Assembly: GCF_017104645.1 (NCBI RefSeq)
Contig: NZ_JAAGPF010000021.1
Span: 1-44,935, forward strand
DNA length: 44,935 bases
Source: Burkholderia sp. Ac-20379
Lineage (GTDB): Bacteria > Pseudomonadota > Gammaproteobacteria > Burkholderiales > Burkholderiaceae
Direction of reading: 5' to 3'
Shown: in pieces, positions 6,592 through 26,612 of the stretch
Layout of the letters: every line of letters begins with the position of its first letter
Numbering within the stretch: the first letter of the stretch is position 1
The notes under the pieces: generated by a model
The model's database searches: none
What the model saw: only the letters and a program-made list of their open reading frames with translations
Told to the model about the DNA's origin: nothing
Translations under genes and position numbers: made by a program

Positions 6592-7170
6592 ATGCCAAAG
6601 AGTTCCGATCGCATCAATCTCACCAACCAGTTCCTGATCGCCATGCCCGGCATGTCCGATCCGACGTTCTCTGGCACGGTGGTCTATCTTTGCGATCACA
6701 GCGAGCGCGGCGCGCTCGGCCTGGTCATCAATCGTCCGACCGACATCGATCTCGAAGCGCTGTTCAACCGCATCGACCTCAAGCTGGACGTCGAGCCGCT
6801 GCTGCATATCCCCGTGTATTTCGGCGGCCCGGTGCAAACCGAGCGCGGCTTCGTGCTGCACGAGCCGGTGGAAGGCAGCAGCTACAGCTCGTCCATGTCG
6901 GTCGAGGGCGGGCTGGAAATGACCACCTCGAAGGACGTGCTCGAAGCCGTGGCCTCGGGCCAGGGCCCGACGCGCTTTCTGCTGACGCTCGGCCATGCCG
7001 GCTGGGGTGCGGGCCAACTCGAGGACGAAATCTCGAAGAACGGCTGGCTGACCGTGGACGCCGATCCGCGCATCGTGTTCGACACGCCGGCCGAGGAACG
7101 CTTCGAGGCCGCGCTCGGCCTGCTCGGCGTGTCGTCGACGATGCTGTCGGGCGAGGCGGGCCACGCATGA
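6592..7170 (+). CDS. algH: YqgE/AlgH family protein
   Basis: The 192-residue product belongs to the UPF0301 (YqgE/AlgH) family, whose biochemical role is not settled. Family hallmarks are [13 protein letters not shown] at the start, [36 protein letters not shown] and [18 protein letters not shown] 6592 matches the usual family start. The stop overlaps the ruvX start by ATGA, which is the common algH-ruvX(yqgF) arrangement in proteobacteria, here followed by pyrR-pyrB. There is no clear Shine-Dalgarno sequence and a possible -10 lies only eight bases upstream, so a leaderless or very short-leader mRNA is possible. Confidence 0.92.
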
Positions 7171-7607
7171 GCGGTGCGTCCGCGCGCGAAGCCACGCTGC
7201 TCGCGTTCGACTACGGCGAAAAGCGCATCGGCGTGGCGGTCGGCAATACGCTGACGCGCACGGCGCGCGCGCTTGTCATCGTTCCCAACCTCAATCGCGA
7301 GTATCGTTTCCAGGCCGTCGGCGAGCTGCTCGCCGAATGGCGGCCGGACGCGCTCGTGGTCGGCCTGCCGCTGCATCCGGACGGCACGCCTCACGAGATG
7401 ACGCAGCAGGCGAAGCGCTTCGGCAATCAGCTGAACGGCCGCTTCAACCTGCCCGTGAGCTGGATCGACGAGCGCTATTCGTCGGTCGAGGCGCGCGCCG
7501 GCCTGCGCGCGCGCGGCGCGAAGGCCGACGCCATCGACGCCGAAGCCGCCCGCGTGATCCTTCAACACTATCTCGACCAGTTGCCCGATCATCATGAGTT
7601 CCATTGA
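7167..7607 (+). CDS. ruvX: RuvX/YqgF putative Holliday junction resolvase, rRNA processing factor
   Basis: The 146-residue product has the RNase H-like fold of Yqg[16 protein letters not shown] (first catalytic Asp), [18 protein letters not shown], and [11 protein letters not shown] with the conserved Asp-Glu pair, ending in [14 protein letters not shown]. YqgF acts in maturation of 16S rRNA 5' ends and was first proposed as a Holliday junction resolvase. The start overlaps algH (ATGA), and the end overlaps pyrR by 14 bases, so algH-ruvX-pyrR are coupled. Confidence 0.93.
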
Positions 7608-8112
7608 CGCCGAAGCGCTCTATCGCACGCTGCTCGACCAGATCCGCGGCGCCTACGGCGAGGCCGCGTTCGCGGCGGCCGACGGCCCCGTGCTCGCCGG
7701 CATCCACAGCGGCGGCGCCTGGCTGGCCGAACGTCTCGCGCGCGACCTGAAGGCGCCCGGCTTCGGCGTGGTCAACGTCGCGCTGCATCGCGACGACTAC
7801 GCGAAAAAGGGCCTGCACAGCCAGGCCAGCCCGACCTCGCTGCCGTTCGAAGTGGACGGCCGCCGGATCCTGCTGGTCGACGACGTGCTGTCCACCGGCC
7901 GCACCGTGCGCGCCGCGCTCAACGAGCTGTACGATTACGGCCGCCCGGCCGCCGTCGAGCTGGCCGTGCTGGCCGATCGCGGCGGCCGCGAGCTGCCGGT
8001 GGCGGCGCGTTTCCTGGGCGGCACGCTCGACGTTGCGCCCGACGCCACGCTGGTGCTCGCGCACGACGACGCCCTGCAGTTCACGTTCGATCTCGAGGCG
8101 CGCTCGCACTGA
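7594..8112 (+). CDS. pyrR: PyrR-type uracil phosphoribosyltransferase / pyrimidine regulator
   Basis: The 172-residue product is a type I phosphoribosyltransferase. The PRPP-binding loop is [18 protein letters not shown] (about residues 89-106), preceded by [13 protein letters not shown] and DDYAKKGL, a typical PyrR pattern. In Gram-positive bacteria PyrR binds pyr mRNA. In beta-proteobacteria it lies upstream of pyrB and may regulate it or simply salvage uracil. The start is embedded in ruvX. A hairpin at 8127-8154 lies between it and pyrB and is a candidate for control, although no antiterminator alternative was identified. Confidence 0.9.
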
Positions 8113-12805: not shown

Positions 12806-13867
12806 ATGATATTGGTGACGGGCGGTGCCGGTTTTATCGGCGCCAATTTCGTGCTCGACTGGTTCGCGCAATCCGGCGAACCGGTGGTGAATGTCGACAA
12901 GCTGACCTACGCAGGCAACCTCGGCACCCTGAAGTCGCTGCAGGACAATCCGAACCACATCTTCGCCCGCGTCGACATTTGCGATCGCGCGGCGATCGAC
13001 GCGTTGCTGGCCGAGCATCGCCCGCGCGCGGTGCTGCATTTCGCGGCCGAAAGCCATGTGGATCGTTCGATCCACGGCCCGGCCGATTTCGTCCAGACCA
13101 ACGTGGTCGGCACGTTCACGATGCTCGAGGCGACGCGCCAGTACTGGAACACGCTCGACGCCGAGGCGAAGGCCGCATTCCGCTTCCTGCACGTGTCCAC
13201 CGACGAGGTGTTCGGTTCGCTGTCGGCCACCGATCCGCAGTTCTCCGAAACCACGCCGTACACGCCGAACAGCCCGTACTCGGCCACCAAGGCCGGTTCC
13301 GATCACCTGGTGCGCGCCTATTTCCACACGTACGGGCTGCCGGTGCTGACCACCAACTGCTCGAACAACTACGGCCCGTATCAATTCCCCGAGAAGCTGA
13401 TTCCGCTGATCATCGCCAACGCGCTGGCCGGCAAGCCGCTGCCAGTGTATGGCGATGGGCAGAACGTGCGCGACTGGCTGTATGTGGGCGATCACTGCTC
13501 GGCGATTCGCGAGGTGCTCGCGCGCGGCCTGCCCGGCGAGACGTACAACGTCGGCGGCTGGAACGAGAAGAAGAACCTCGACGTCGTGCACGTGCTGTGC
13601 GATCTGCTCGATGCGCAGAAGCCGAAGGCGAGCGGCTCGTACCGCGACCAGATCACGTTCGTGACCGATCGCCCCGGCCACGATCGCCGCTACGCGATCG
13701 ACGCGCGCAAGCTCGAGCGCGAGCTCGGCTGGAAGCCGGCCGAAACCTTCGAAACCGGCATGGCGAAGACCGTGCGCTGGTATCTCGACAATCAGGCGTG
13801 GGCCGCCGAAGTCGCGTCGGGCGAGTACCGCAAATGGGTTGAGATGAACTACGCGCAACGCGCTTGA
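12806..13867 (+). CDS. rmlB: dTDP-glucose 4,6-dehydratase
   Basis: The 353-residue product is the second enzyme of dTDP-L-rhamnose synthesis. It is an extended SDR protein with NAD-binding [10 protein letters not shown] at the N-terminus, STDEVFGSL with the conserved Thr-Asp-Glu of the dehydratase active site, and [10 protein letters not shown] with the catalytic Tyr and Lys. [18 protein letters not shown] and the closing [11 protein letters not shown] are diagnostic for RmlB. It is followed after 14 bases by rmlA and heads the plus-strand O-antigen transcript. Confidence 0.97.
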
Positions 13868-13881
13868 CGAGGAGCGAAGCG

Positions 13882-14775
13882 ATGGCACGCAAGGGCATCA
13901 TTCTGGCCGGCGGTTCCGGCACGCGGCTGTATCCGATCACGCATGCGGTGTCGAAGCAGCTGCTGCCCGTGTACGACAAGCCGATGATCTATTACCCGCT
14001 GTCGACGCTGATGATCGCCGGCATCCGCGAGGTGCTGATCATCTCGACGCCGCAGGACACGCCGCGTTTCGAGGCGATGCTCGGCGACGGTTCGCAGTGG
14101 GGCATGGACATCCAGTACGCGGTGCAGCCGTCGCCCGATGGTCTGGCGCAGGCGTTCATCATCGGCAAGGCGTTCGTCGGCAACGATCCGTCGGCGCTGA
14201 TTCTGGGCGACAACATCTTCTACGGGCACGATCTGGCGAAGCAGTTGCAGCGCGCCGACGCGCGCGATGCCGGCGCGACGGTGTTCGCCTATCACGTGCA
14301 CGATCCGGAGCGCTACGGCGTGGTGGAGTTCGACAAGGATTTCCGCGCGCTGTCGATCGAGGAAAAGCCGGCCAAGCCGCGCTCGAACTACGCCGTCACC
14401 GGCCTCTATTTCTACGACAACCAGGTGTGCGACATCGCCGCCGACATCAAGCCGTCGGCGCGCGGCGAGCTCGAGATCACCGACGTGAACTCGCGCTACC
14501 TGAAGGCGGGCCAGCTCGACGTCGAGATCATGGGCCGCGGCTATGCCTGGCTCGATACCGGCACGCACGATTCGCTGATCGAGGCCGCGACGTTCATTGC
14601 GACGCTGCAGAAGCGGCAGGGGCTCGTGGTCGCGTGTCCGGAGGAAATCGCCTACCGGCATCGCTGGATCGACGGCGAGCAGGTGCTCAAGCTCGCGCAG
14701 CCGCTCGCGAAGAACGCGTATGGGCAATATCTGAAGAACCTTTTGACGGAACAGGTCGCATGGCAATCCAAGTGA
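13882..14775 (+). CDS. rmlA: glucose-1-phosphate thymidylyltransferase
   Basis: The 297-residue product makes dTDP-glucose from dTTP and glucose-1-phosphate. The nucleotide-binding GGSGTRLYP is at the start, [20 protein letters not shown] follows in the family pattern, with [27 protein letters not shown], and EITDVN. ATG 13882 follows a good ribosome site (GAGGAG at 13868). It overlaps rmlC by 16 bases. RmlA is usually feedback-inhibited by dTDP-rhamnose. Confidence 0.97.
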
Positions 14776-15311
14776 CGGCAACGGCATTGCCGGAGGTGAA
14801 GATCGTCGAACCGAAGGTGTTCGGCGACGCGCGAGGCTTTTTCTACGAGAGCTTCAACGGCCGCGAATTCGCCGACAAGGTGGATGCGGGCGCGGTGTTC
14901 GTGCAGGACAACCACTCGCGCTCGGCGCGCGGCGTGCTGCGTGGGCTGCATTATCAGATCGAGCATGCGCAGGGCAAGCTGGTGCGCGTGATCGAGGGCG
15001 AGGTGTTCGACGTGGCCGTCGACATCCGCAAGTCGTCGCCGAATTTCGGCAAGTGGGTCGGCGTGCTGCTGTCGGCCGAGAACGCGCGCCAGATGTGGGT
15101 GCCGCCGGGCTTCGCGCACGGCTTCGTCACGCTCAGCGAATCGGCCCAGTTCCTCTACAAGACGACCGATTACTGGTACCCGGAATTCGAACGCAGCATC
15201 CTGTGGAACGATCCGTCGCTCGCGATCGACTGGCCGATCGATTTCGAGCCGCAACTGGCGGCGAAGGATGCGGCGGGTGTGCGGCTTGCAGATGCAGACG
15301 TCTACGCCTGA
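14760..15311 (+). CDS. rmlC: dTDP-4-dehydrorhamnose 3,5-epimerase
   Basis: The 183-residue cupin enzyme epimerises C3 and C5 of dTDP-4-keto-6-deoxyglucose. Motifs: [31 protein letters not shown] with the catalytic His in GLHYQ, the Asp of [10 protein letters not shown], and [10 protein letters not shown]. The start overlaps the end of rmlA, and rmlD begins seven bases after its stop. Confidence 0.97.
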
Positions 15312-15318
15312 GGTCGTG

Positions 15319-16215
15319 ATGAATTCATCGCAACGCACTATCCTGCTGACGGGCGTCAACGGCCAGGTCGGCTATGAACTCGCGCGCAGCCTGCAAGGGC
15401 TCGGACGCGTCGTCGCGCTGGATCGGCAGGCGCTCGATCTGTCGGATCCGGATGCGATTCGCCGCACGATGCGCGAGATTGCCCCGGCGCTGGTCGTCAA
15501 CCCGGCGGCATATACGGCCGTCGATCAGGCGGAAAGCGATGTGGCCGGGGCGACCCGGCTCAACGTCGATGCGCCGGCAGCCTTTGCCGAAGAGGCGAAG
15601 CGCAGCGACGCCGCGCTCGTGCATTACTCCACCGATTACGTCTACGCCGGCGACGGCGAGGCGCGCTATGTGGAAACCGATCCCGTCGGCCCGCGCAACG
15701 TGTACGGTCGAACCAAGCTGGAAGGCGAGCAGGCGATCGTTGCCAGCGGCTGCCGCCATCTGATCCTGCGCACGAGCTGGGTGTACGGCCTGCGCGGCCG
15801 CAATTTCCTGAAGACGATGCTGCGTGTCGGCGCGGAGCGAAGCGAGCTCAATGTGGTGGCCGATCAGATTGGCGCACCAACGTGGTCGCGCACGATTGCC
15901 GATCTGACCGCGGCCGTGCTGGCGCAGTCGGTCTCGCCGGGCGTGCAGGCCGATGCGTGGTGGCATGCCCATTCGGGCATTTATCACCTGGCCGCTGGCG
16001 GCGAGACGTCGTGGCACGGTTTTGCCGAAGCGATCTTCGAACAGGCGGCCGGCGAGACGCGTCCGGTCGTGCATCCGATTCCGGCTTCGTCATATCCCAC
16101 GCCGGCGGCACGTCCATCGAATTCCCGGCTGTCGATGGACAAGCTGGAGCGGATCTTCGGCCTGGCCGTTCCGAACTGGCGCGATGCGCTGCGTCTGTGC
16201 ATGACCGCGGATTGA
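15319..16215 (+). CDS. rmlD: dTDP-4-dehydrorhamnose reductase
   Basis: The 298-residue SDR enzyme carries out the last step to dTDP-L-rhamnose. GVNGQVGYEL is the cofactor motif, NPAAYTAVDQAE and STDYVYAGDG are RmlD signatures, and YGRTKLEGE has the catalytic Tyr and Lys. ATG 15319 fits the family start. Codon use begins to relax towards A/T third positions near its end compared with rmlB and rmlA. Its stop overlaps the TTG start of the next gene. Confidence 0.95.
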   Translation: MNSSQRTILLTGVNGQVGYELARSLQGLGRVVALDRQALDLSDPDAIRRTMREIAPALVVNPAAYTAVDQAESDVAGATRLNVDAPAAFAEEAKRSDAALVHYSTDYVYAGDGEARYVETDPVGPRNVYGRTKLEGEQAIVASGCRHLILRTSWVYGLRGRNFLKTMLRVGAERSELNVVADQIGAPTWSRTIADLTAAVLAQSVSPGVQADAWWHAHSGIYHLAAGGETSWHGFAEAIFEQAAGETRPVVHPIPASSYPTPAARPSNSRLSMDKLERIFGLAVPNWRDALRLCMTAD

Positions 16216-17144: not shown

Positions 17145-19085
17145 TCAATCGAGCATGCCGATGCGCGGCGGCTCCGCGTACGAGAAAGGCGGCACATTGT
17201 CGGCCAGCGACAGGTTGGGGTTGTACGCCGGGTCGCGCAGCAGCGCATCGCCCCAGCGGGCTTCCATGCGTTTCGCTTCCTCGAGGAATCTTGCGTACTT
17301 TTCCGGCGACATGTCTGTGCCGCGGCTTGCCGATTCGTGGTGCGTCAGTTCGGCGAACGGGGTCCAGGCGTTGCGGTAACCCGCTTCACGTACCTTGAGG
17401 CAGAAATCCACGTCGTTGAACGCGACGCGCAGCGTTTCCTCGAGCCCCCCCACCTGATCGTAGATCGCCTTGCTGACAACGAGGCACGCGGCGGTGACGG
17501 CCGATACGTTCTGAATCGATATTGCGCGGCTCATATAGCCGAACTGGCCGCGCGGCAGCATGTGGTGCAGGTGTCCGGCCGTGCCGTTCAGGCCGAGCAG
17601 TACGCCGCCGTGCTGAAGCTGGCCGTCCGGGTAGCGCAGCGCAGCGCCGACCGCGCCGATGCCCGGCAGTGCGGCCAGCGCCACCATCTCGTCGAGCCAA
17701 CCCCCGTCCTGTATCTCGGTGTCGTTGTTGAGCAGGCACAGATAGGCGCCGCGCGCGATGGCGGCGGCACGATTGTTCAGTGCGGAAAAATTGAACGGTG
17801 AATCGTCGCGCAGGATACGTACGCGAGGCTGTTGCCCCAACTGCTCGAAATAGGCCAGCGTCGCGGGCTCGATGCTGCCGTTGTCGACCACGATGATTTC
17901 GTAGTTCGGGTAGCGGGTGGTGCGCATCAGGCTGTCGAGACAGGTGCGCAGCAGCGGCAGGCTGTCTCGTGTCGGCACGATGATCGACACGAGCGGCGCC
18001 GGTTGCGGTAGCGGATAGCGCACGCGCAGAACCGCGGCGCCGGGGGCCGCGGCTTCGACCGTCGCACCGCGCAGGTTCGTGCGCTGCAGATGCTCGAGCA
18101 GCGCCTGTCGTTCGGCGTGCGAGCGTTGCGCCTTCGCGCTTGCCGTATCGCCGGACTGGACGCGCCGGTGATACAGGACATGCGGAATATGAACGATATC
18201 GTTTTCGCCGGCAATCTCGATGCAGCGCAGTGCCAGGTCGTAGCTCGCGCCGAAGCCTGGCCGAAAACCGCCGGCTTCGCGGATCAGCGCGGCGTCGAAT
18301 ACACCGAGGTGCGAGAACAGATCCTGAGCGCGGAACAGCAGCGGATTCCAATCGGGTTTGAAGCAGGGCGCGTTGCGTGTGCCGTGCTCGTCGAGCTGGT
18401 CTTCGTCGCTATAGAACAGCCGGGCTTGTGGATGGCGCTCGATGTAGCGGGCGACCACGAACAGTGCGTGAGGCGGCAAAAGGTCATTGGGGCCGATCGA
18501 TGCCACGAAGCTGCCCGAGGCGAGCGAGAGCGCGTCGTTGCCTGGATTCGCGAGAGGCTGATCGCGATGCATCACGCGAATCCGCGCATCGGCGTCGCGA
18601 TGCGCATCGAGGGCATGGCGGAGCGCTGGTGGCAGCGATGCGTCGCAGGCAATACACAGCTCCCAATGCGGATACACCTGTGCCTGAATCGAACCGATCG
18701 TCGCGTCGACCTGGGCAAGGCTGCTGTGGCTGTCCGTTGTCATCAAGATCGAGAAGCGCGGCAACGGGCGCAGGGTCGCAATCGCCGCGATCGCGGCGGC
18801 CTGTTGATCCGCGCCGAACGTGTCGTAGCGGGCGATCCAGGCGCCGTATTCCGGGCCGGTGCGGAGTCGGCCCAGGCGGTTGCGGAAGCCCCGGATGCCT
18901 TCCCAGCGCAGGATGCGGATGCAATAGGCCATCGCGGCCGGATAGCCGCCGTGCGTGACCGCCATCCGGCGGGCAACGCCGACAGCGAGCGGCACGATGG
19001 TCGCGAGGCGGCGCAGCCGGCCAGCCTCGGAAGCCGTGTCGACAGAAGGAGGAGGGGTATCGCCGGTCGGCGGAACGTGGGTCAT
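17145..19085 (-). CDS. large tandem GT2 glycosyltransferase, 646 aa
   Basis: Two GT2-type domains are visible, at about residues 108-330 and 368-600. The second is complete: VSIIVPTRDS, VVDNGSIE, LLNNDTEIQDGGWLDEM and FNDVDFCLKVREAGYR. The first has the family outline (FSILMTT, FYSDEDQLDEHG, FKPDWNP) but the usual acidic DHDD-type motif reads GPND, so it may be weakened. This architecture is common in O-antigen and polyrhamnan loci. It is read from the minus strand as the last gene of wzm-wzt-GT, 27 bases after wzt. It is cytoplasmic and probably extends or begins a rhamnan or heteropolymer. Confidence 0.85.
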   Translation of the reverse strand: MTHVPPTGDTPPPSVDTASEAGRLRRLATIVPLAVGVARRMAVTHGGYPAAMAYCIRILRWEGIRGFRNRLGRLRTGPEYGAWIARYDTFGADQQAAAIAAIATLRPLPRFSILMTTDSHSSLAQVDATIGSIQAQVYPHWELCIACDASLPPALRHALDAHRDADARIRVMHRDQPLANPGNDALSLASGSFVASIGPNDLLPPHALFVVARYIERHPQARLFYSDEDQLDEHGTRNAPCFKPDWNPLLFRAQDLFSHLGVFDAALIREAGGFRPGFGASYDLALRCIEIAGENDIVHIPHVLYHRRVQSGDTASAKAQRSHAERQALLEHLQRTNLRGATVEAAAPGAAVLRVRYPLPQPAPLVSIIVPTRDSLPLLRTCLDSLMRTTRYPNYEIIVVDNGSIEPATLAYFEQLGQQPRVRILRDDSPFNFSALNNRAAAIARGAYLCLLNNDTEIQDGGWLDEMVALAALPGIGAVGAALRYPDGQLQHGGVLLGLNGTAGHLHHMLPRGQFGYMSRAISIQNVSAVTAACLVVSKAIYDQVGGLEETLRVAFNDVDFCLKVREAGYRNAWTPFAELTHHESASRGTDMSPEKYARFLEEAKRMEARWGDALLRDPAYNPNLSLADNVPPFSYAEPPRIGMLD

Positions 19086-19112: not shown

Positions 19113-20513
19113 TTACTCGACTGCGTCGTCGATGTGCAGCGTGATACGGGTCATGGGCGTGCCGGCGAGCCCGGAGGCCAGATGCGCCGATTCGGATTTG
19201 ACGATGCAGGCATCGTGTACGCAGTCGACGATGTGCGCCGTGCCATCGACATTCGACAGCACGTAGGCGGTGACGGCGTAATCGCCCGGCGGCAGCAATG
19301 GCATCGCAAAGCGAAATTCGGCGACCCACTGCTCGCATACCTCGGCGTGGGCGACCGGCGAGAACGCCGTGTCGTCGCCGAAGACAGCCTGGCCGAGCCG
19401 ATCCTTGACGATGAAGCCGACGCACGGCGGTTCCACGCCGCCCGGATCGCGCAACGTGACCCGCAGCGTCACCGGATCGTTGCCGGTGATCCAGGCAACC
19501 GTGGCGCCGTTCTCCCCGATCAATGCGACGTTGTCGATCAACGGCCGTTCGCGGTGGGCCGGCAAAGCTTGAGGATCGATGTCGGCGCCGCCGAGCGAGG
19601 GCGCTTGGCGGGCCGGCAGCGCGGCGAAGTGCGCCCGCTGATCCGCCGCGGGTCGCGCGTGGCCTTCAGGGCGTTCGCGCGTCTTGCGCGGCGAGCGTTT
19701 GTGCCAGTCGAGGCCTTCGCCTTGTTGCTGACGATAGAAGGCTTCGAAATAGTGCGTGCAGACTTCTTTCGAACTGCCGCTTTCGCGCAGCACCCCGCGA
19801 TCGAGCCAGATCGCCCGGTCGCACAGGCTGCGTACGGCCGCCGAGTCGTGGCTGACGAACAGCACGGTGCCGTGCTGCTGGAAGCGTCGCAGGAAGCGCA
19901 TGCATTTTTGCGTGAAGAACGCATCGCCGACCGCCAGGGCTTCGTCGATCACGAGGATGTCGGCGTCGACGTGCGCGATGACCGCGAACGCCAGGCGCAC
20001 GAACATCCCGCTCGAGTATGTCTTGACCGGCTGATCGATGAATTCGCCGATGTCGGCGAATTCGATGATGTCGTCGAGGCGCGCCTCGATTTCTTCGCGT
20101 GTCAGGCCGTGCAATTGGCCATTGATGAAGATGTTTTCCCGCCCGCTGTATTCGGTATCGAAACCCGAGCCCAGTTCGAGCAGCGCCGCGATGCGTCCGT
20201 GTGTCTGCGCCTCGCCTTGCGTCGGCGCGAGCGTGCCGCAGACGATCTGCAGCAGCGTGCTTTTTCCCGAGCCGTTGCGGCCGATGATGCCGATCGTTTC
20301 GCCGCGCGCGACGTCGAAGCTGATATCGCGCAGCGCCCAGAACATCCGGACGCTGTCCTGCGCCCTGGCCTGCCAGAAGCGGCGCAGGGGCGGCAGTGGC
20401 GTAAGCGCTGCGAACAGCGAATAGAGGCTGCGTTTGAGGCGGTCCGCCGGCCGGCGATACGATTCGAAGCCCTTGGCGACGCTCGAGATGCGGATGGCGA
20501 TCTCAGATGACAT
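19113..20513 (-). CDS. wzt: O-antigen ABC exporter ATP-binding protein Wzt (copy 1)
   Basis: The 466-residue product has an ABC ATPase domain: Walker A GRNGSGKST at residues 78-86, signature YSSGM at 166-170, Walker B ILVIDE at 186-191 and the switch His in FVSHD. A linker of about 90 residues, rich in Arg and Pro, leads to a C-terminal beta-sandwich of the Wzt_C type (about 325-460), which in the E. coli O9a system binds the capped glycan end. ATG 20513 is used; a TTG six bases earlier is an alternative. Its start overlaps the wzm stop by 11 bases. Residues 152-200 are identical to the second Wzt at 21813, but the C-terminal domains differ. Confidence 0.93.
   Translation of the reverse strand: MSSEIAIRISSVAKGFESYRRPADRLKRSLYSLFAALTPLPPLRRFWQARAQDSVRMFWALRDISFDVARGETIGIIGRNGSGKSTLLQIVCGTLAPTQGEAQTHGRIAALLELGSGFDTEYSGRENIFINGQLHGLTREEIEARLDDIIEFADIGEFIDQPVKTYSSGMFVRLAFAVIAHVDADILVIDEALAVGDAFFTQKCMRFLRRFQQHGTVLFVSHDSAAVRSLCDRAIWLDRGVLRESGSSKEVCTHYFEAFYRQQQGEGLDWHKRSPRKTRERPEGHARPAADQRAHFAALPARQAPSLGGADIDPQALPAHRERPLIDNVALIGENGATVAWITGNDPVTLRVTLRDPGGVEPPCVGFIVKDRLGQAVFGDDTAFSPVAHAEVCEQWVAEFRFAMPLLPPGDYAVTAYVLSNVDGTAHIVDCVHDACIVKSESAHLASGLAGTPMTRITLHIDDAVE
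19960..20006 (-). repeat. left copy of 47-bp perfect inverted repeat within wzt copy 1
   Basis: Read on the minus strand, these 47 bases are identical to 22305-22351 on the plus strand. Both begin at the same codon (Met170 of copy 1, Met165 of copy 2). The 54 bases before the repeat in each gene differ at about five positions, so roughly 100 bases are about 95% identical. Confidence 0.9.
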
Positions 20514-21327
20514 CGGCAAAACCTCTGCGTGTTTTCTGGAACCACGCGAAGCCGATCCATGCGATCAGCGCGGCCAGCACGCAATACACGCTCCAGCGGC
20601 TCCAGTCGATCGGATTGCCGAATACGAGCACATCGCGGCTTTGCTCGATCGGATAGGTCATCGGATTCAGATAGACAAACTTGCGAAACCGTTCCGGCAG
20701 CGACGAGACGGGGAAAAACACCGGGGAGAGGAACATGAGCGCGGTGATCGCGATGCCGACAGTCTGGCCGATGTCGCGAAGGTACACACCGGTGGCCGCG
20801 AGCAACCAGCTCAGACCCATGATGAGCAGACACAGCGGTGCGAGCACGATCGGAAACAGCAATGCGGTCAGCGGGACATGGCCGAGAATCAGCCACTCGG
20901 CGACAAGCAGGATCAACGCACTCACGCAAAGATGGAACAGCCCCGAGAGCAGCGTCACGCAGGGCAGGATCTCGAGCGGGAATACGATCTTCTTGACGAA
21001 GTTGGCATTCGACAGGATCTGCGACGGAGCGCGGTTCGCACACTCCGAGAACAGATTGAACATGATCATGCCGGCGAACAGAACGACGGCGAATTCACCT
21101 TTGGACGCCGATGGCGATGCGCCGCCCCAGCGCGACTTGAACACTTCGCTGAACACGAAGGTGTAGACGCTGAGCATCATGAGCGGGGTCAGCAGCGACC
21201 AGAAAATACCGAGGACGGAACCCTTGTAGCGTCCGACGGCGTCGCGTCGCGCGAGGTCTAGCAGCAGGCGTCGATTCCGAATCAGCGACGCGGCGAGCGC
21301 TCGCGGCGAAGTGCTGAAGCTTTGCAT
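20503..21327 (-). CDS. wzm: O-antigen ABC exporter permease Wzm
   Basis: The 274-residue product has about six hydrophobic segments and the ABC-2 permease layout: RDAVGRYKGSVLGIFWSLLTPLMML with the first membrane span, NANFVKKIVFPLEILP, and LNPMTYPIEQSRDVLVFG near the end. It exports undecaprenyl-linked O-antigen across the inner membrane with Wzt. ATG 21327 was selected because the longer frame adds 50 residues unlike the family. It is the only wzm in the window, yet two wzt genes are present, one on each side. Confidence 0.94.
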   Translation of the reverse strand: MQSFSTSPRALAASLIRNRRLLLDLARRDAVGRYKGSVLGIFWSLLTPLMMLSVYTFVFSEVFKSRWGGASPSASKGEFAVVLFAGMIMFNLFSECANRAPSQILSNANFVKKIVFPLEILPCVTLLSGLFHLCVSALILLVAEWLILGHVPLTALLFPIVLAPLCLLIMGLSWLLAATGVYLRDIGQTVGIAITALMFLSPVFFPVSSLPERFRKFVYLNPMTYPIEQSRDVLVFGNPIDWSRWSVYCVLAALIAWIGFAWFQKTRRGFADVI

Positions 21328-21812
21328 AATGTCGTTTGAAAATATTGCCGGAAGCGGCGGATTGCATTGGCCGCGGAAACAGGTGAAGCCGCTATCGGGA
21401 GATCGGCCGGGCGATGATCTGAGGCCGGAAGGCTCCGTGGCGATCTTGGATTGTGGGCGGCACGTTCGCAACGCCACGAATTATGTCACACGGTGTCAGG
21501 CGGCCGTCTCTTGCGGCAGGTTTCAAGAGAGCGCTGAAGTGTGTCGAAGTGTAAATGCCGCGATCGGCACGATCTGCTCATGCCCCGTCTGTCGCGTCGG
21601 CACGACAATTGCGGTGCGGCGCGCAACGTCGTTTTGACGTGGGTGGAGAGGCGTGCAGGATTGTTGCATCTCGCATCGTGGAAAGCCCAAAACGCGGTAG
21701 AATTCTGCAACTTTTACAACGAACCTGCCCCCGCTCTGCCGCACCTGGAATGCGCGTTTTCGCCGACGTGCCGTGTCTTCCTGGCCGAAGGGCGAGCACA
21801 TAATAAACCTGT
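21328..21812. other. 485-bp divergent promoter region between wzm and wzt copy 2
   Basis: This AT-richer region must carry promoters in both directions. For wzt copy 2 I see TAGAAT (21698-21703) and CATAAT (21799-21804), neither with a good -35. A small inverted repeat, ACGTC-GTTTT-GACGT (21626-21640), lies in the middle. No convincing small gene is present. It lies inside the segment bounded by the inverted repeats in the two wzt genes. Confidence 0.5.
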
Positions 21813-23189
21813 ATGTCTGAAGAGAGCGCAATCGAGGCGGTCGGCATCGCCAAGGGTTTTGCTGCGTATCAACAGCCGTCCGATCGGCTCAAGCGCGGCA
21901 TGCTCGGAGTGGTATCGCGGTTCGTCCCGGGGTACCCGGCTGGCGAGCGCATGGCCGGCGCCGACACGTTCTGGGCCTTGAAAGACATTTCGCTGTCGGT
22001 GCGGCGTGGCGAGACGGTCGGCATCGTCGGACGAAATGGGTCCGGCAAGAGCACCTTGTTGCAGATCATCTGCGGCACGCTGGCGCCGAGCTCCGGTTCG
22101 TTGAACGTCAGCGGCAAGGTGGCGGCGCTGCTGGAACTCGGGTCGGGCTTCGACGCCGAGTACACCGGCCGCGAGAATATCTATCTGAACGCACAGCTCT
22201 ACGGCCTCACGCGCGCTCAGATCGATGCGCGTTACGACTCGATCGCGGCCTTTGCCGACATTGGCGAATTCATCGACCAGCCGGTCAAGACGTACTCGAG
22301 CGGCATGTTCGTGCGCCTGGCGTTCGCGGTCATCGCGCACGTCGACGCCGATATCCTTGTGATCGACGAAGCATTGGCGGTCGGCGACGCATTTTTCAAT
22401 CAGAAGTGCTATCGCTTCCTCGAAGCGTTCAAGCAGCACGGAACCATCCTGTTCGTGAGCCACGACACCTCCACGATTCGCAAGCTCTGCACGCGTGCAG
22501 TCTGGATCGATGCCGGCAGCGTGATTGCGCAGGGCACGCCGTCGGAGGTCTGCGGCGCCTATCTGGAGGCGCGCTACAGCAACGGCACGCTGGCGCCGGC
22601 CGCGGCGCGTCCGGCATCGTCCGCCGGCGCCGCGGGTGGCCAGGCGCCCGAGCGGCTCGACGCCCGCCGCGACGCGATCAACGTCACGCCGCTGCGCAAC
22701 GATATCCGCGTACTGCCGTTCAATGTGTCGTCGCAAGCCTTCGGCGCGGGCGGCGCCCGCATCGTCGATGTGTCGTTGGTGGACAATGCGCGGCGCCCGC
22801 TTGCCTGGGTGGTGGGGGGCGAGCCGGTGCGGCTGCGCGTGACGATCGAGGTCGACGATGCGCTCATGTCGCCGATCGCCGGTTTTTACATCAAGAACGA
22901 GCGCGGCCAGGAGCTGGTCGGTGCCAATACCTATTTGACTTATATCGGCGATCCGGTCGTATGCAGTGCCGGCGACACGTTGACCGCCGAGTTTTCGTTC
23001 GTGATGCCGGTGCTGCCGGAAGGCCAATATTTCATCAATGTGGCCGTGGCGGAAGGCACGCAGTACGACCATGTGCAGCTTCACTGGATTCATGACGGGT
23101 TGCCGCTCGAGGTCGTCTCGTCCAGGGTGCGGCATGCGCTGGTTGGCGTGCCGCTGACAGGCGTTGGCCTGTCCCCGCTCGTGCATTGA
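21813..23189 (+). CDS. wzt: O-antigen ABC exporter ATP-binding protein Wzt (copy 2)
   Basis: The 458-residue product has Walker A GRNGSGKST (73-81), YSSGM (161-165), Walker B ILVIDE (181-186), and FVSHD, followed by a linker of about 50 residues and a Wzt_C-type domain (about 300-455). Residues 147-195 are identical to residues 152-200 of copy 1, with near-identical DNA. The C-terminal domain clearly differs, for example FYIKNERGQELVGANTY here against FIVKDRLGQAVFGDDTA in copy 1. It is oriented away from wzm and is followed after 81 bases by the methyltransferase-coiled-coil protein, so it may recognise the cap which that protein adds. It has no dedicated permease and would have to share Wzm. 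Confidence 0.92.
   Translation: MSEESAIEAVGIAKGFAAYQQPSDRLKRGMLGVVSRFVPGYPAGERMAGADTFWALKDISLSVRRGETVGIVGRNGSGKSTLLQIICGTLAPSSGSLNVSGKVAALLELGSGFDAEYTGRENIYLNAQLYGLTRAQIDARYDSIAAFADIGEFIDQPVKTYSSGMFVRLAFAVIAHVDADILVIDEALAVGDAFFNQKCYRFLEAFKQHGTILFVSHDTSTIRKLCTRAVWIDAGSVIAQGTPSEVCGAYLEARYSNGTLAPAAARPASSAGAAGGQAPERLDARRDAINVTPLRNDIRVLPFNVSSQAFGAGGARIVDVSLVDNARRPLAWVVGGEPVRLRVTIEVDDALMSPIAGFYIKNERGQELVGANTYLTYIGDPVVCSAGDTLTAEFSFVMPVLPEGQYFINVAVAEGTQYDHVQLHWIHDGLPLEVVSSRVRHALVGVPLTGVGLSPLVH
22305..22351 (+). repeat. right copy of 47-bp perfect inverted repeat within wzt copy 2
   Basis: This is the partner of 19960-20006, in inverted orientation and in the same reading phase. The two copies flank wzm, both Wzt N-terminal halves and the divergent promoter region, a segment of about 2.3 kb. 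Confidence 0.9.
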
Positions 23190-23270: not shown

Positions 23271-26200
23271 ATGACTAAAACAGTTCGGACGTTTCGCTTC
23301 AAGGGTGCGGAGAATGGCCACGAATTCACCGGCGAGCGCTATTTGCCCGGTGTCGGCGGCCCGATCCAGTACGAGCACTATCATCGCTATCTGTTCTCGA
23401 CGGCTCTGGTGGCCGGCAAGCAAGTGCTCGACATCGCATCCGGGGAGGGTTACGGCTCGGCGCTGCTCTCGCAGGCAGCACAGACGGTGGTCGGCGTCGA
23501 TATCGACGCGGCGGCGGTCGAGAACGCACGCACCCGGTATGCCGAACATACGAACCTGCGATACGAACATGGCAGCGCGACCAGCATTCCGCTGCCTGAC
23601 GCCTCTGTCGACGTGCTGAACTCGTTCGAGACGCTCGAGCACTTTCACGAGCACGAGGCCTTCATGCGCGAAGCGAAGCGCGTGCTGCGCCCGAACGGGT
23701 TGATGATCATCTCGACGCCGAACCGTCCGATTTACTCGCCGCCGGGCTCGCCGCCCAACGAATACCACGTGCGCGAACTCGATCGCGACGAATTCGTCGC
23801 GTGGCTGCGGAGCGGTTTTCGCAATTTCGTGTTGTACGAGCAAAAGCCGCTCGCCGGCTCGTTGCTGCAGCGCGAGGGCCGCGAGGGCGCGCGCGAAGTG
23901 AATTGCTGGGCCGAGCGAGAGGTCGGCGAATATCGCTCGACGTCCGGCATGGTCGACCCGGTGTATTTCATTGCGATCGCGTCCGATGGCGAATTGCCTG
24001 AGCCGGACGACGATCTGCTCGACGGCGGCGTGTCGTTCACGCGCTACGATCAGGAGCGCAACGCGCGAATCGGTGCGCAACTGGTCGAAATTGTCCGTCT
24101 CACGACCGAAACCATGGGGCGTGCCGAGGAAATCGGCCGGCTCACGGCCGAGACGGTGCGGCTGACGGAGGAAACGCTGAAGCGCGACGGCGAGGTCGGC
24201 CGTTTGAGCGTCGAAGTGAGCAGGCTCAACGAATTGATGACCGAGCGCAACGGCGAGATCGCCCGGCTGCGCAGCGACGTCTCGCGTCTCGAGAGCGCCG
24301 CACGCAAAAACGTTCGCGAGGGGCGTCCGCGCGAGGAGCGCCTGGGCTCGGTGGACGACGTGCTCGCAAGAATGAACGAACAGAAGCGCATCTCGTCGAC
24401 CCTGGTGCGTCGTGTCGACGAACTGTCGTCGGACCTGCGCGCATCGCTGGCGCGGCGAACCCTGACGGCGCAGCAGGACAATGCGCCGGAGGCGGTACGG
24501 GATTCCTTGCTGCGTGAGAATCACGATCTGCATCAACAATTGCATGCGATGCGGCACTCGATGTCGTGGCGTGTGACGGGGCCGTTGCGTGCTGCATCGG
24601 GCCGTGCACGGCTGATGTTGCGCCGCGGTGCGAACAAGAATGTCAAAGCGGAAGCCGTGACGGCCAATATCGTCGACGCCGGCAATACGCCGGGCGCGCT
24701 GGCGCAGAGCGATGCGCCGCGCGCTGCCATCGTGGTGTTCCCGTGCAGTTCGGCTGCGATGGCGCAGTCGCTGGCCGGGATCGGTGCGCATACCGGTGGC
24801 GTGCCGTACCGCGCAGCCGTGTTCGGCAACCTCGCGCCGGAGCTGGTCGCGCGAACGGGTATCGACGTGATTGCGCGCACGGGCGACGCCGCTCAGTTGC
24901 ATGAGCTCCCCGATCTTGCTGGCGACTACGTCGTGCTGATGTCGGGCGATCTGGTGCCGCAGCCGGGGTGGCTCGATGCCATCGACGAGGCGTTTCGCCG
25001 TTTCAACGCCGATGCGGTGACCGCCTTGGTGCTCAATCGCGACGGATCCATCCAGGCGGCGGGTTCGCAGGTCGATGGGGCCGCGCACCTGGTGCCTTGT
25101 CGCGCCGGCGGCGATCCGTGCGACGAGCGTTTCGGCGCGGTCGCCGCCGTGACGGCGCCGAGCCAGGGCATCGTTGCAATCCGCAAGGGCGTGTGGAGCG
25201 AGGTACGCAATCTGGTCGGCACGCTGATCGGAGACACGCTCGACCTGACCGCCGCCGCCCTTGAACTCGCATCGCGTGGCCATTCGATCTATCTTCAACC
25301 GTTCGCGCGCTGTGTCGAAGCGCCGGCTGCGAGCGATGCGGCGCAGGCCGACGAATGGACTCAGGCTCATGCACGATGGGTGCTGCGCCTTCGTTACGAG
25401 AAGTTGTTTGCCGGCAACCGGCCGTTTGGCGACATCATCGAGCAGAAGGCACGTCCGAAGCTGGTGGTGACCGATGCCTTCGTGCCGAAGCCCGATCAGG
25501 ATTCGGGCTCGAACGATGTCTACTGGTACCTGAGGATCTTCCGCGAGTTCGGTTTCGATGTGTGCTTCATCGCGGCCTACGAGTCACCGGTCGCCTTCGA
25601 CGATTCGTATTGCAGTGCGCTGCGCCGCTGGGGCGTGCGCGTTCGGGTTGCGCAGGGCCTGTCGTCGTTCCACGAGATCCTGATGGAAGAAGCCGCGGAC
25701 GCACGCGTCGTGCTCGCGCAGCGGATTCTCGTTGCACGTCATACGTTCGAGTGGCTGCGTGAATCGGGGGCGACGACCAAGCTCGTATTCGGCACGGTCG
25801 ACCTGCATTATCTGCGCGAGGAACGCGCCGCGATTCTGAACCGTTCTCCCGCGGCTCTCGAAGACGCGATGATGGTCAAGCGTGCGGAACTGCAGGCGGT
25901 GTCCGATGCGGATGCGACCATCGTGGTGAGCCGCACCGAAGCCGACATACTCGCGAATCTGCTTCCTTCCGCCAATGTGCATCGCATTCCGATTCCGCGC
26001 ATTCCGGAGCGTTCGACGGTTCCGTTCGCGGAACGCTCCGGCGTGTTGTTCGTCGGTGGCTTCGCGCATGCCCCCAACATCGATGCGGTGATGTTCCTGG
26101 TCGAGGAGATCTGGCCGATTGTGCGGCGTTCGCTGCCCGACATCGAACTCCGCATCGTCGGCAGCGGTGTGACGCCGGAGATCGCGGCGCTGGCCGATCC

Positions 26201-26612
26201 GGCGCAAAAGATCGTGATCGTCGGCTTTGTCGAGAATCTCGACACCGTCACGTCGGCCGCGCGTCTTTCCGTGGCGCCGCTTCGCTTCGGCGCGGGCATC
26301 AAGGGCAAGGTCGTGTCGAGTCTGCTGGCCGGGTTGCCGTCGGTACTGAGCCGCATGGCCAGTGAAGGCATGGGCTTGGTCGAGGGCGAACAAATGTTGA
26401 GCGGCAACAGCGCTGAGGAAATTGCGGCCGCGATCGTCCTGCTGCACGAGGACGCCGCGCTGTGGCAGCGCATCGCCGATGCCGGTTTTGCCGCCGCATC
26501 GACCGAGTATTCGGTCGAGTCCGTTGCGGCGCGCCTCGGAACCCTGTTCGATTCGATTGGCGTTGCCGACGGCGTGCGCGAACTGCGCAGCGGCGTGTTC
26601 GACGTCAAGTGA
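23271..26612 (+). CDS. multidomain methyltransferase / coiled coil / GT2-like / GT4 protein, 1113 aa
   Basis: Residues about 20-240 form a class I SAM methyltransferase: TGERYLPG, motif I VLDIASGEGYG (52-62), GVDID, and SFETLEHFHEHE. Residues 265-345 are a coiled coil built of three 21-residue repeats. A second helical stretch ends with SMSWRVTGPLR (430-440), a boundary often seen after coiled coils in multidomain glycosyltransferases. Residues about 485-715 resemble a reduced GT2 domain (DYVVLMSGDLVPQPGWLDAI). Residues about 728-1100 are a GT4 domain (YWYLRIFREFGFDV, VLFVGGFAHAPNIDA, LRFGAGIKGKVV). A methyltransferase joined to a coiled coil recalls WbdD, which caps O-antigen and measures chain length. 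No WbdD kinase domain is seen. The function is inferred from architecture and from the adjacent Wzt. Confidence 0.8.
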   Translation: MTKTVRTFRFKGAENGHEFTGERYLPGVGGPIQYEHYHRYLFSTALVAGKQVLDIASGEGYGSALLSQAAQTVVGVDIDAAAVENARTRYAEHTNLRYEHGSATSIPLPDASVDVLNSFETLEHFHEHEAFMREAKRVLRPNGLMIISTPNRPIYSPPGSPPNEYHVRELDRDEFVAWLRSGFRNFVLYEQKPLAGSLLQREGREGAREVNCWAEREVGEYRSTSGMVDPVYFIAIASDGELPEPDDDLLDGGVSFTRYDQERNARIGAQLVEIVRLTTETMGRAEEIGRLTAETVRLTEETLKRDGEVGRLSVEVSRLNELMTERNGEIARLRSDVSRLESAARKNVREGRPREERLGSVDDVLARMNEQKRISSTLVRRVDELSSDLRASLARRTLTAQQDNAPEAVRDSLLRENHDLHQQLHAMRHSMSWRVTGPLRAASGRARLMLRRGANKNVKAEAVTANIVDAGNTPGALAQSDAPRAAIVVFPCSSAAMAQSLAGIGAHTGGVPYRAAVFGNLAPELVARTGIDVIARTGDAAQLHELPDLAGDYVVLMSGDLVPQPGWLDAIDEAFRRFNADAVTALVLNRDGSIQAAGSQVDGAAHLVPCRAGGDPCDERFGAVAAVTAPSQGIVAIRKGVWSEVRNLVGTLIGDTLDLTAAALELASRGHSIYLQPFARCVEAPAASDAAQADEWTQAHARWVLRLRYEKLFAGNRPFGDIIEQKARPKLVVTDAFVPKPDQDSGSNDVYWYLRIFREFGFDVCFIAAYESPVAFDDSYCSALRRWGVRVRVAQGLSSFHEILMEEAADARVVLAQRILVARHTFEWLRESGATTKLVFGTVDLHYLREERAAILNRSPAALEDAMMVKRAELQAVSDADATIVVSRTEADILANLLPSANVHRIPIPRIPERSTVPFAERSGVLFVGGFAHAPNIDAVMFLVEEIWPIVRRSLPDIELRIVGSGVTPEIAALADPAQKIVIVGFVENLDTVTSAARLSVAPLRFGAGIKGKVVSSLLAGLPSVLSRMASEGMGLVEGEQMLSGNSAEEIAAAIVLLHEDAALWQRIADAGFAAASTEYSVESVAARLGTLFDSIGVADGVRELRSGVFDVK
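24096..24284 (+). repeat. three 21-residue coiled-coil repeats (63-bp units)
   Basis: The repeats encode residues 276-296, 297-317 and 318-338 of the 1113-aa protein. Each unit is a 14-residue block starting RL and ending E-[IV]-[GA], then a 7-residue block starting RL. Units two and three keep the same phase, and RLES begins a fourth. Being three heptads long, each unit adds about 3 nm of coiled coil. Confidence 0.8.

Follow-up and report, generated by a model that had tools for sequence, protein, structure and literature searches.

Why do two facing wzt genes in the genome of Burkholderia sp. Ac-20379 share an identical stretch in opposite orientation, and does that stretch act as a switch? 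Wzt is the ATPase of O-antigen ATP-binding cassette (ABC) exporters, and its C-terminal domain recognises the modified chain end prior to export. The window analysed here, 44,935 nucleotides (nt) long, is bases 1 to 44935 of contig NZ_JAAGPF010000021.1 from a 7.4-Mb draft of 826 contigs, and it carries two wzt genes beside a single gene, wzm, for the membrane permease. A preliminary description of this DNA proposed that recombination across the shared stretch could invert the segment between and switch O-antigen export specificity, with gene conversion named as an alternative. We find it very probable that the identical tract was produced by that alternative, that is, by concerted evolution through gene conversion between the two inverted wzt copies, without net crossover.

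The first copy, wzt1 (19113 to 20513, minus strand; 466 amino acids), encodes a Wzt-type ABC ATPase domain (N1; Pfam ABC_tran, 5e-22) and a C-terminal Wzt_C domain (C1; 5e-23), and the second, wzt2 (21813 to 23189, plus strand; 458 amino acids), joins a second such ATPase domain (N2; ABC_tran, 1.6e-21) to its own Wzt_C (C2; 3.6e-37). The 47-nt exact inverted match pairs 19960 to 20006 (minus strand, within the ABC signature-to-Walker B stretch of wzt1) with 22305 to 22351 (plus strand, within wzt2), beginning at nt 508 of wzt1 (codon 170, from the ATG at 20513) and nt 493 of wzt2 (codon 165), in equal codon phase. The best 100-nt stretch of the repeat agrees at 95/100 positions and the best 140-nt stretch (wzt1 19921 to 20060) at 130/140. 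The 2.3-kb block between the arms contains the 5′ halves of both ATPase domains, the ABC-2 permease gene wzm (20503 to 21327, minus strand; ABC2_membrane, 3e-27; start set at a Met read from the open reading frame [ORF], with 20503 to 21345 used in homology searches) and the divergent intergenic region between wzm and wzt2 (21328 to 21812, no strand assigned), which lies between both starts and is the presumed site of both promoters. The length and near-identity (about 95% over about 100 bases) given earlier for the repeat, its shared phase at these codons and the content of the enclosed block were thus all confirmed. The tract sits in a longer inverted homology of 395 nt (19795 to 20189, minus strand, and 22122 to 22516, plus strand, 77% complementary), accompanied by a further arm pair of 86 nt (81%); this homology is the paralogous ABC ATPase domain of the facing wzt genes, which in codon alignment is about 67% identical between the copies.

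The identity in the window exceeds what protein conservation gives. Two simulations of 20,000 rounds each kept both proteins fixed. A run of at least 47 nt had P = 0.00035 when codons followed their usage in seven ORFs of the window, and P = 0.009 when codon pairs changed places between sites encoding the same residue; the longest chance runs in the two were 62 and 71 nt.

Relatives were sought in 65 genomes of the genus (as DNA), 398 from the family, 144 and 58 of two related genera and one named-genome collection, sets that overlap. Among 79 family genomes with a wzm match, the arrangement was read in 35 (window included) and the other 44 have a wzm of at most 54% identity, so that the count of two-wzt loci covers wzm genes down to the rows read, with any distant loci among those 44 outside it. 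Fifteen genomes, that of the window among them, had a wzm with an identity of 70% or more to the window copy, and 14 of these carry the two-wzt locus. L062, L116, L118 and L119 were omitted as repeats of L043, L059, L061 and L060, respectively, and L042, a near-duplicate of L041, was left out of the run comparison, trees, single-Wzt comparison and silent-site permutations, leaving 13 genomes for these.

Within a genome, the longest exact run shared by copy 1 and copy 2 was 47 nt in the window, 73 in L039, 101 in L040 and 77 in L043, and 12 to 26 nt in the other nine; between copies from different genomes it averaged 19.5 nt with a maximum of 50 and reached at least 47 in 2/156 pairs. Permuting the pairing of copies among the 13 genomes gave P = 2e-5 for these exact runs. 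Silent sites of the tract told the same four genomes apart: identity within the genome was 0.82 (window), 0.97 (L039), 0.95 (L040) and 0.84 (L043), against cross-genome means of 0.59, 0.63, 0.59 and 0.60 and values over the rest of the domain of 0.50, 0.72, 0.58 and 0.51, respectively. In the remaining nine genomes, tract amino acids were nearly the same (34 to 39 comparable codons of 40) and silent identity was 0.35 to 0.63 (0.66 in the dropped L042). Paralogs were therefore more alike within than across genomes in 4/13, and only over overlapping stretches of the ATPase domain, as concerted evolution would leave them. Since the copies were made alike and not exchanged, the likeness of both suggests a non-reciprocal transfer, that is, gene conversion rather than inversion. 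Shorter exact runs around Walker A, in the 5′ part of the ATPase domain, were also seen within L039 (35 nt) and L040 (38 nt) and may represent a second, smaller transfer.

In trees of the DNA from the 13 genomes, the flanks sorted by copy and the tract did not. A single change sufficed to split the copies at codons 1 to 150 (100/98) and at codons 205 to 255 (100/99); in the tract, sorting them took eight changes (shuffled mean, 9.0), and copy 1 of the window grouped with copy 2 of the window (87/89). Domain trees were built with 11 of 47 single-copy Wzt rows (C domain at least 36% identical to C2, with near-duplicates L047 and L081 left out) and five outgroup rows. For the ATPase domain, N1 and N2 fell together (97/93) with the single-copy Wzts outside, which fits one duplication of wzt before these species split; the copy 2 clade was firm (100/98) and the copy 1 clade weak (78/65). 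In the C-domain tree, copy 2 was not a clean clade (the long-branch L065 lay inside), copy 1 was weak (78/21) and one outgroup row was misplaced. C1 (19116 to 19574) diverges much faster between species than C2 (22683 to 23186), with 34% against 49% identity between the window and L122, as if its glycan specificity were changing or its constraint were relaxed.

On this account, wzt1 and wzt2 are old paralogs set back to back beside one wzm, and gene conversion between these inverted genes would have made their signature-to-Walker B tract alike again in several lineages. Such conversions would proceed by ordinary (RecA-type) homologous recombination and would have arisen separately in several lineages, and both Wzt proteins would work with the same Wzm.

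Several observations weigh against gene conversion or soften the case for it. Of the four genomes, it is the window in which the run is shortest and tract identity lowest (0.82, where cross-genome pairs reach at most 0.76), and permutations restricted to silent sites gave P = 0.017 for the window and 0.03 for L039, the latter because its whole domain is alike. L041 had a low P (0.0035; silent sites, 0.003) without a long run, and 2/156 cross-genome control pairs also had P < 0.01. The pairing permutation is uncorrected for codon usage shared within a genome, yet the nine other genomes had no excess. The tract tree (120 columns) had no starred branch, so its failure to sort by copy partly reflects lack of signal. 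Finally, L039 and L040 share runs of 48 to 50 nt across copies, and some of their likeness may thus predate the split between them.

Could the repeat nonetheless be a working switch, in which homologous recombination across it turns the 2.3-kb wzm block around, so that the two ATPases trade their C-terminal recognition domains? We regard this as improbable. The arms are inverted and in phase, three relatives have longer exact arms, and the copies bear traces of mutual recombination (4/13 genomes), so that the geometry, phase and homology proposed for inversion by homologous recombination stand; the inversion itself was seen in 0/14 genomes. An inversion through the tract would put N1-C2 on the wzm strand, and no genome shows that arrangement. 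All 14 two-wzt genomes, one per species, have N1-C1 on the wzm strand and a divergent N2-C2 on the methyltransferase strand, with inverted order or swapped N/C partners in none of the assemblies, and on either side of the tract the sequences from 13 genomes group by copy. Orientation in relatives, one half of the refutation test set for the switch in the preliminary description, is accordingly fixed as far as it was read, and no positive evidence came forward for a change of export specificity. The count is one of assemblies: an ordinary short read is longer than the 47-nt arm, for which reason a draft assembly would probably display only the commoner orientation, and an inverted minority of molecules within a culture would be compatible with it. 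The arms themselves were not maintained across the species, as the runs of just 12 to 26 nt in 9/13 genomes indicate; an exact repeat of at least 47 nt is present in only four. No recombinase domain was found among 25 Pfam-scanned ORFs of the window (a subset, several without any match), although some invertible switches need no dedicated recombinase. Domain-swapping inversions of the kind envisaged are known for hsdS genes of Type I restriction systems, where duplicated genes and inverted repeats likewise allow an in-frame exchange of specificity domains (PMC7394358 and PMC4948785, in excerpt); the wzt locus differs from the hsdS of these excerpts in that none of the 14 genomes shows it inverted or with swapped partners and there is no evidence of switching.

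Protein conservation with biased codon usage would make such identity unremarkable for two ATPases in a GC-rich genome, and the signature-to-Walker B stretch is indeed the most conserved of the domain (0.90 to 0.93 identity to 11 single-copy Wzts), with chance runs in the simulations surpassing that of the window. As a sufficient cause it has very little probability left, given the two simulation P values, the relatives whose runs extend to 73, 77 and 101 nt, and the pairing permutation, which largely refutes it; nine genomes that hold nearly the same protein at background silent identity indicate that protein conservation alone does not suffice, and they likewise speak against a constraint on the DNA itself that would impose identical silent sites on every genome. 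It is also highly improbable that an ancient inversion via the tract created the present order from an ancestral wzm-wzt(N1-C2)-methyltransferase operon. In the single-wzt loci L049, L065, L067 and L080, wzm is indeed followed by wzt and then by a methyltransferase gene, all on one strand, N1 and C2 are the best matches, and the stem branches of N2 and C1 are longer, but N1 and N2 are about equally near those single Wzts. Along the codons (11 single-copy Wzts, L081 included and L066 excluded), it is copy 1, not copy 2, that resembles the singles immediately after the tract, at codons 200 to 215, in 13/13 genomes (0.76, with 0.53 for copy 2). Up to codon 260, copy 1 remains a little nearer to them (9/13), copy 2 being clearly nearer only beyond. 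Had the order switched at the tract, the reverse would be expected, and differences upstream are small and of mixed sign, so that an inversion at this point is not borne out; faster evolution of C1 explains the remaining pattern.

A known counterpart is the tufA/tufB pair of Salmonella enterica, which lies in inverse orientation 762 kb apart and is kept near-identical over 1185 nt by gene conversion (PMC5485169, in excerpt). As in that excerpt, two inverse-oriented paralogs on one chromosome appear to be kept alike by non-reciprocal transfers; unlike there, about 50 to 140 nt of a domain that is about 67% identical are homogenised here, in genes 2.3 kb apart. Titles and abstract openings of the papers listed gave no report of wzt inversion or of wzt gene conversion in O-antigen loci.

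The neighbourhood supports O antigen as the predicted export substrate: rml-type sugar genes were recognised in scans of window ORFs (12806 to 16215, plus strand), a family 2 glycosyltransferase gene (17145 to 19085, minus strand; Glycos_transf_2, 5e-29) lies downstream of wzt1, and 3′ of wzt2 follows a methyltransferase-glycosyltransferase fusion (23271 to 26612, plus strand; Methyltransf_11, 1e-23; Glyco_trans_1_4, 2e-18), a candidate modifier of the chain end. Both ATPase domains match chain 8dku_A (E = 3e-71 and 1e-72); 8dku is presumably a relative of the Aquifex aeolicus structure 7k2t. The WzmWzt of A. aeolicus (7k2t) is an O-antigen ABC transporter with a carbohydrate-binding domain that recognises a methylated mannose or rhamnose cap (PMC9445017, in excerpt). 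The window resembles it in having ATPase domains that match 8dku_A and Wzt_C domains, and a methyltransferase beside wzt would agree with recognition of a methylated chain end; it differs from the transporter of that excerpt in having one Wzm with two different Wzt copies per locus, not one Wzt.

Within its own genome, wzm matched only itself at E ≤ 1e-70, and across the 14 two-wzt genomes the gap from wzm to the divergent wzt was 445 to 2118 nt. Patterns for Walker A, signature, Walker B and H-loop were present in both Wzt copies of all 14; a degenerate ATPase, which would have suggested an asymmetric pair, was thus not found at motif level. Two of the two-wzt genomes (L115 and L117; G304 and G352) have a second, single wzm-wzt pair about 15 to 33 kb away (wzm 57 to 59% identical). 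At L121, the fifteenth genome, a wzm 73% identical to that of the window (6945 to 7769) has no wzt in the 14 kb read; a weak sulfotransferase-like ORF (under the Pfam cut-off) follows, and an RgpF-methyltransferase-glycosyltransferase fusion lies opposite. Of 22 plasmid records that matched the query, none covered 80% of it in one place. In a B. cenocepacia strain, the O-antigen cluster has one wzt and one wzm (PMC5462993, in excerpt), and literature on Wzt, Burkholderia ABC transporters and Wzt heterodimers held, in its titles and abstract openings, no description of a locus with two wzt and one wzm.

The likeness of the repeat is thus mostly ordinary, and the unusual part is the design with two motors. 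One Wzm with two motif-intact Wzt ATPases whose glycan-recognition domains have diverged, conserved in 14 genomes, is an unusual architecture as judged from the genes, and the two diverged C domains around a single wzm suggest that the Wzts form a mixed pair or else that export has two specificities. A fuller picture, in which one Wzm serves two Wzts (combined in an asymmetric hetero-pair, or forming two alternative pairs, one per glycan end) while conversion keeps the ATPase core alike, the recognition domains diverge and rare inversions at the tract may make swapped pairs, is conceivable but unlikely. What looked like a phase switch can instead be tested as gene conversion over a short tract of two facing paralogs, with the affected places overlapping among several species, and the case illustrates that an inverted repeat inside duplicated genes can mimic an invertible switch when one genome is viewed. 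The conserved locus with two Wzts and one Wzm asks whether an O-antigen ABC exporter can be a hetero-dimer, or can handle two glycans.

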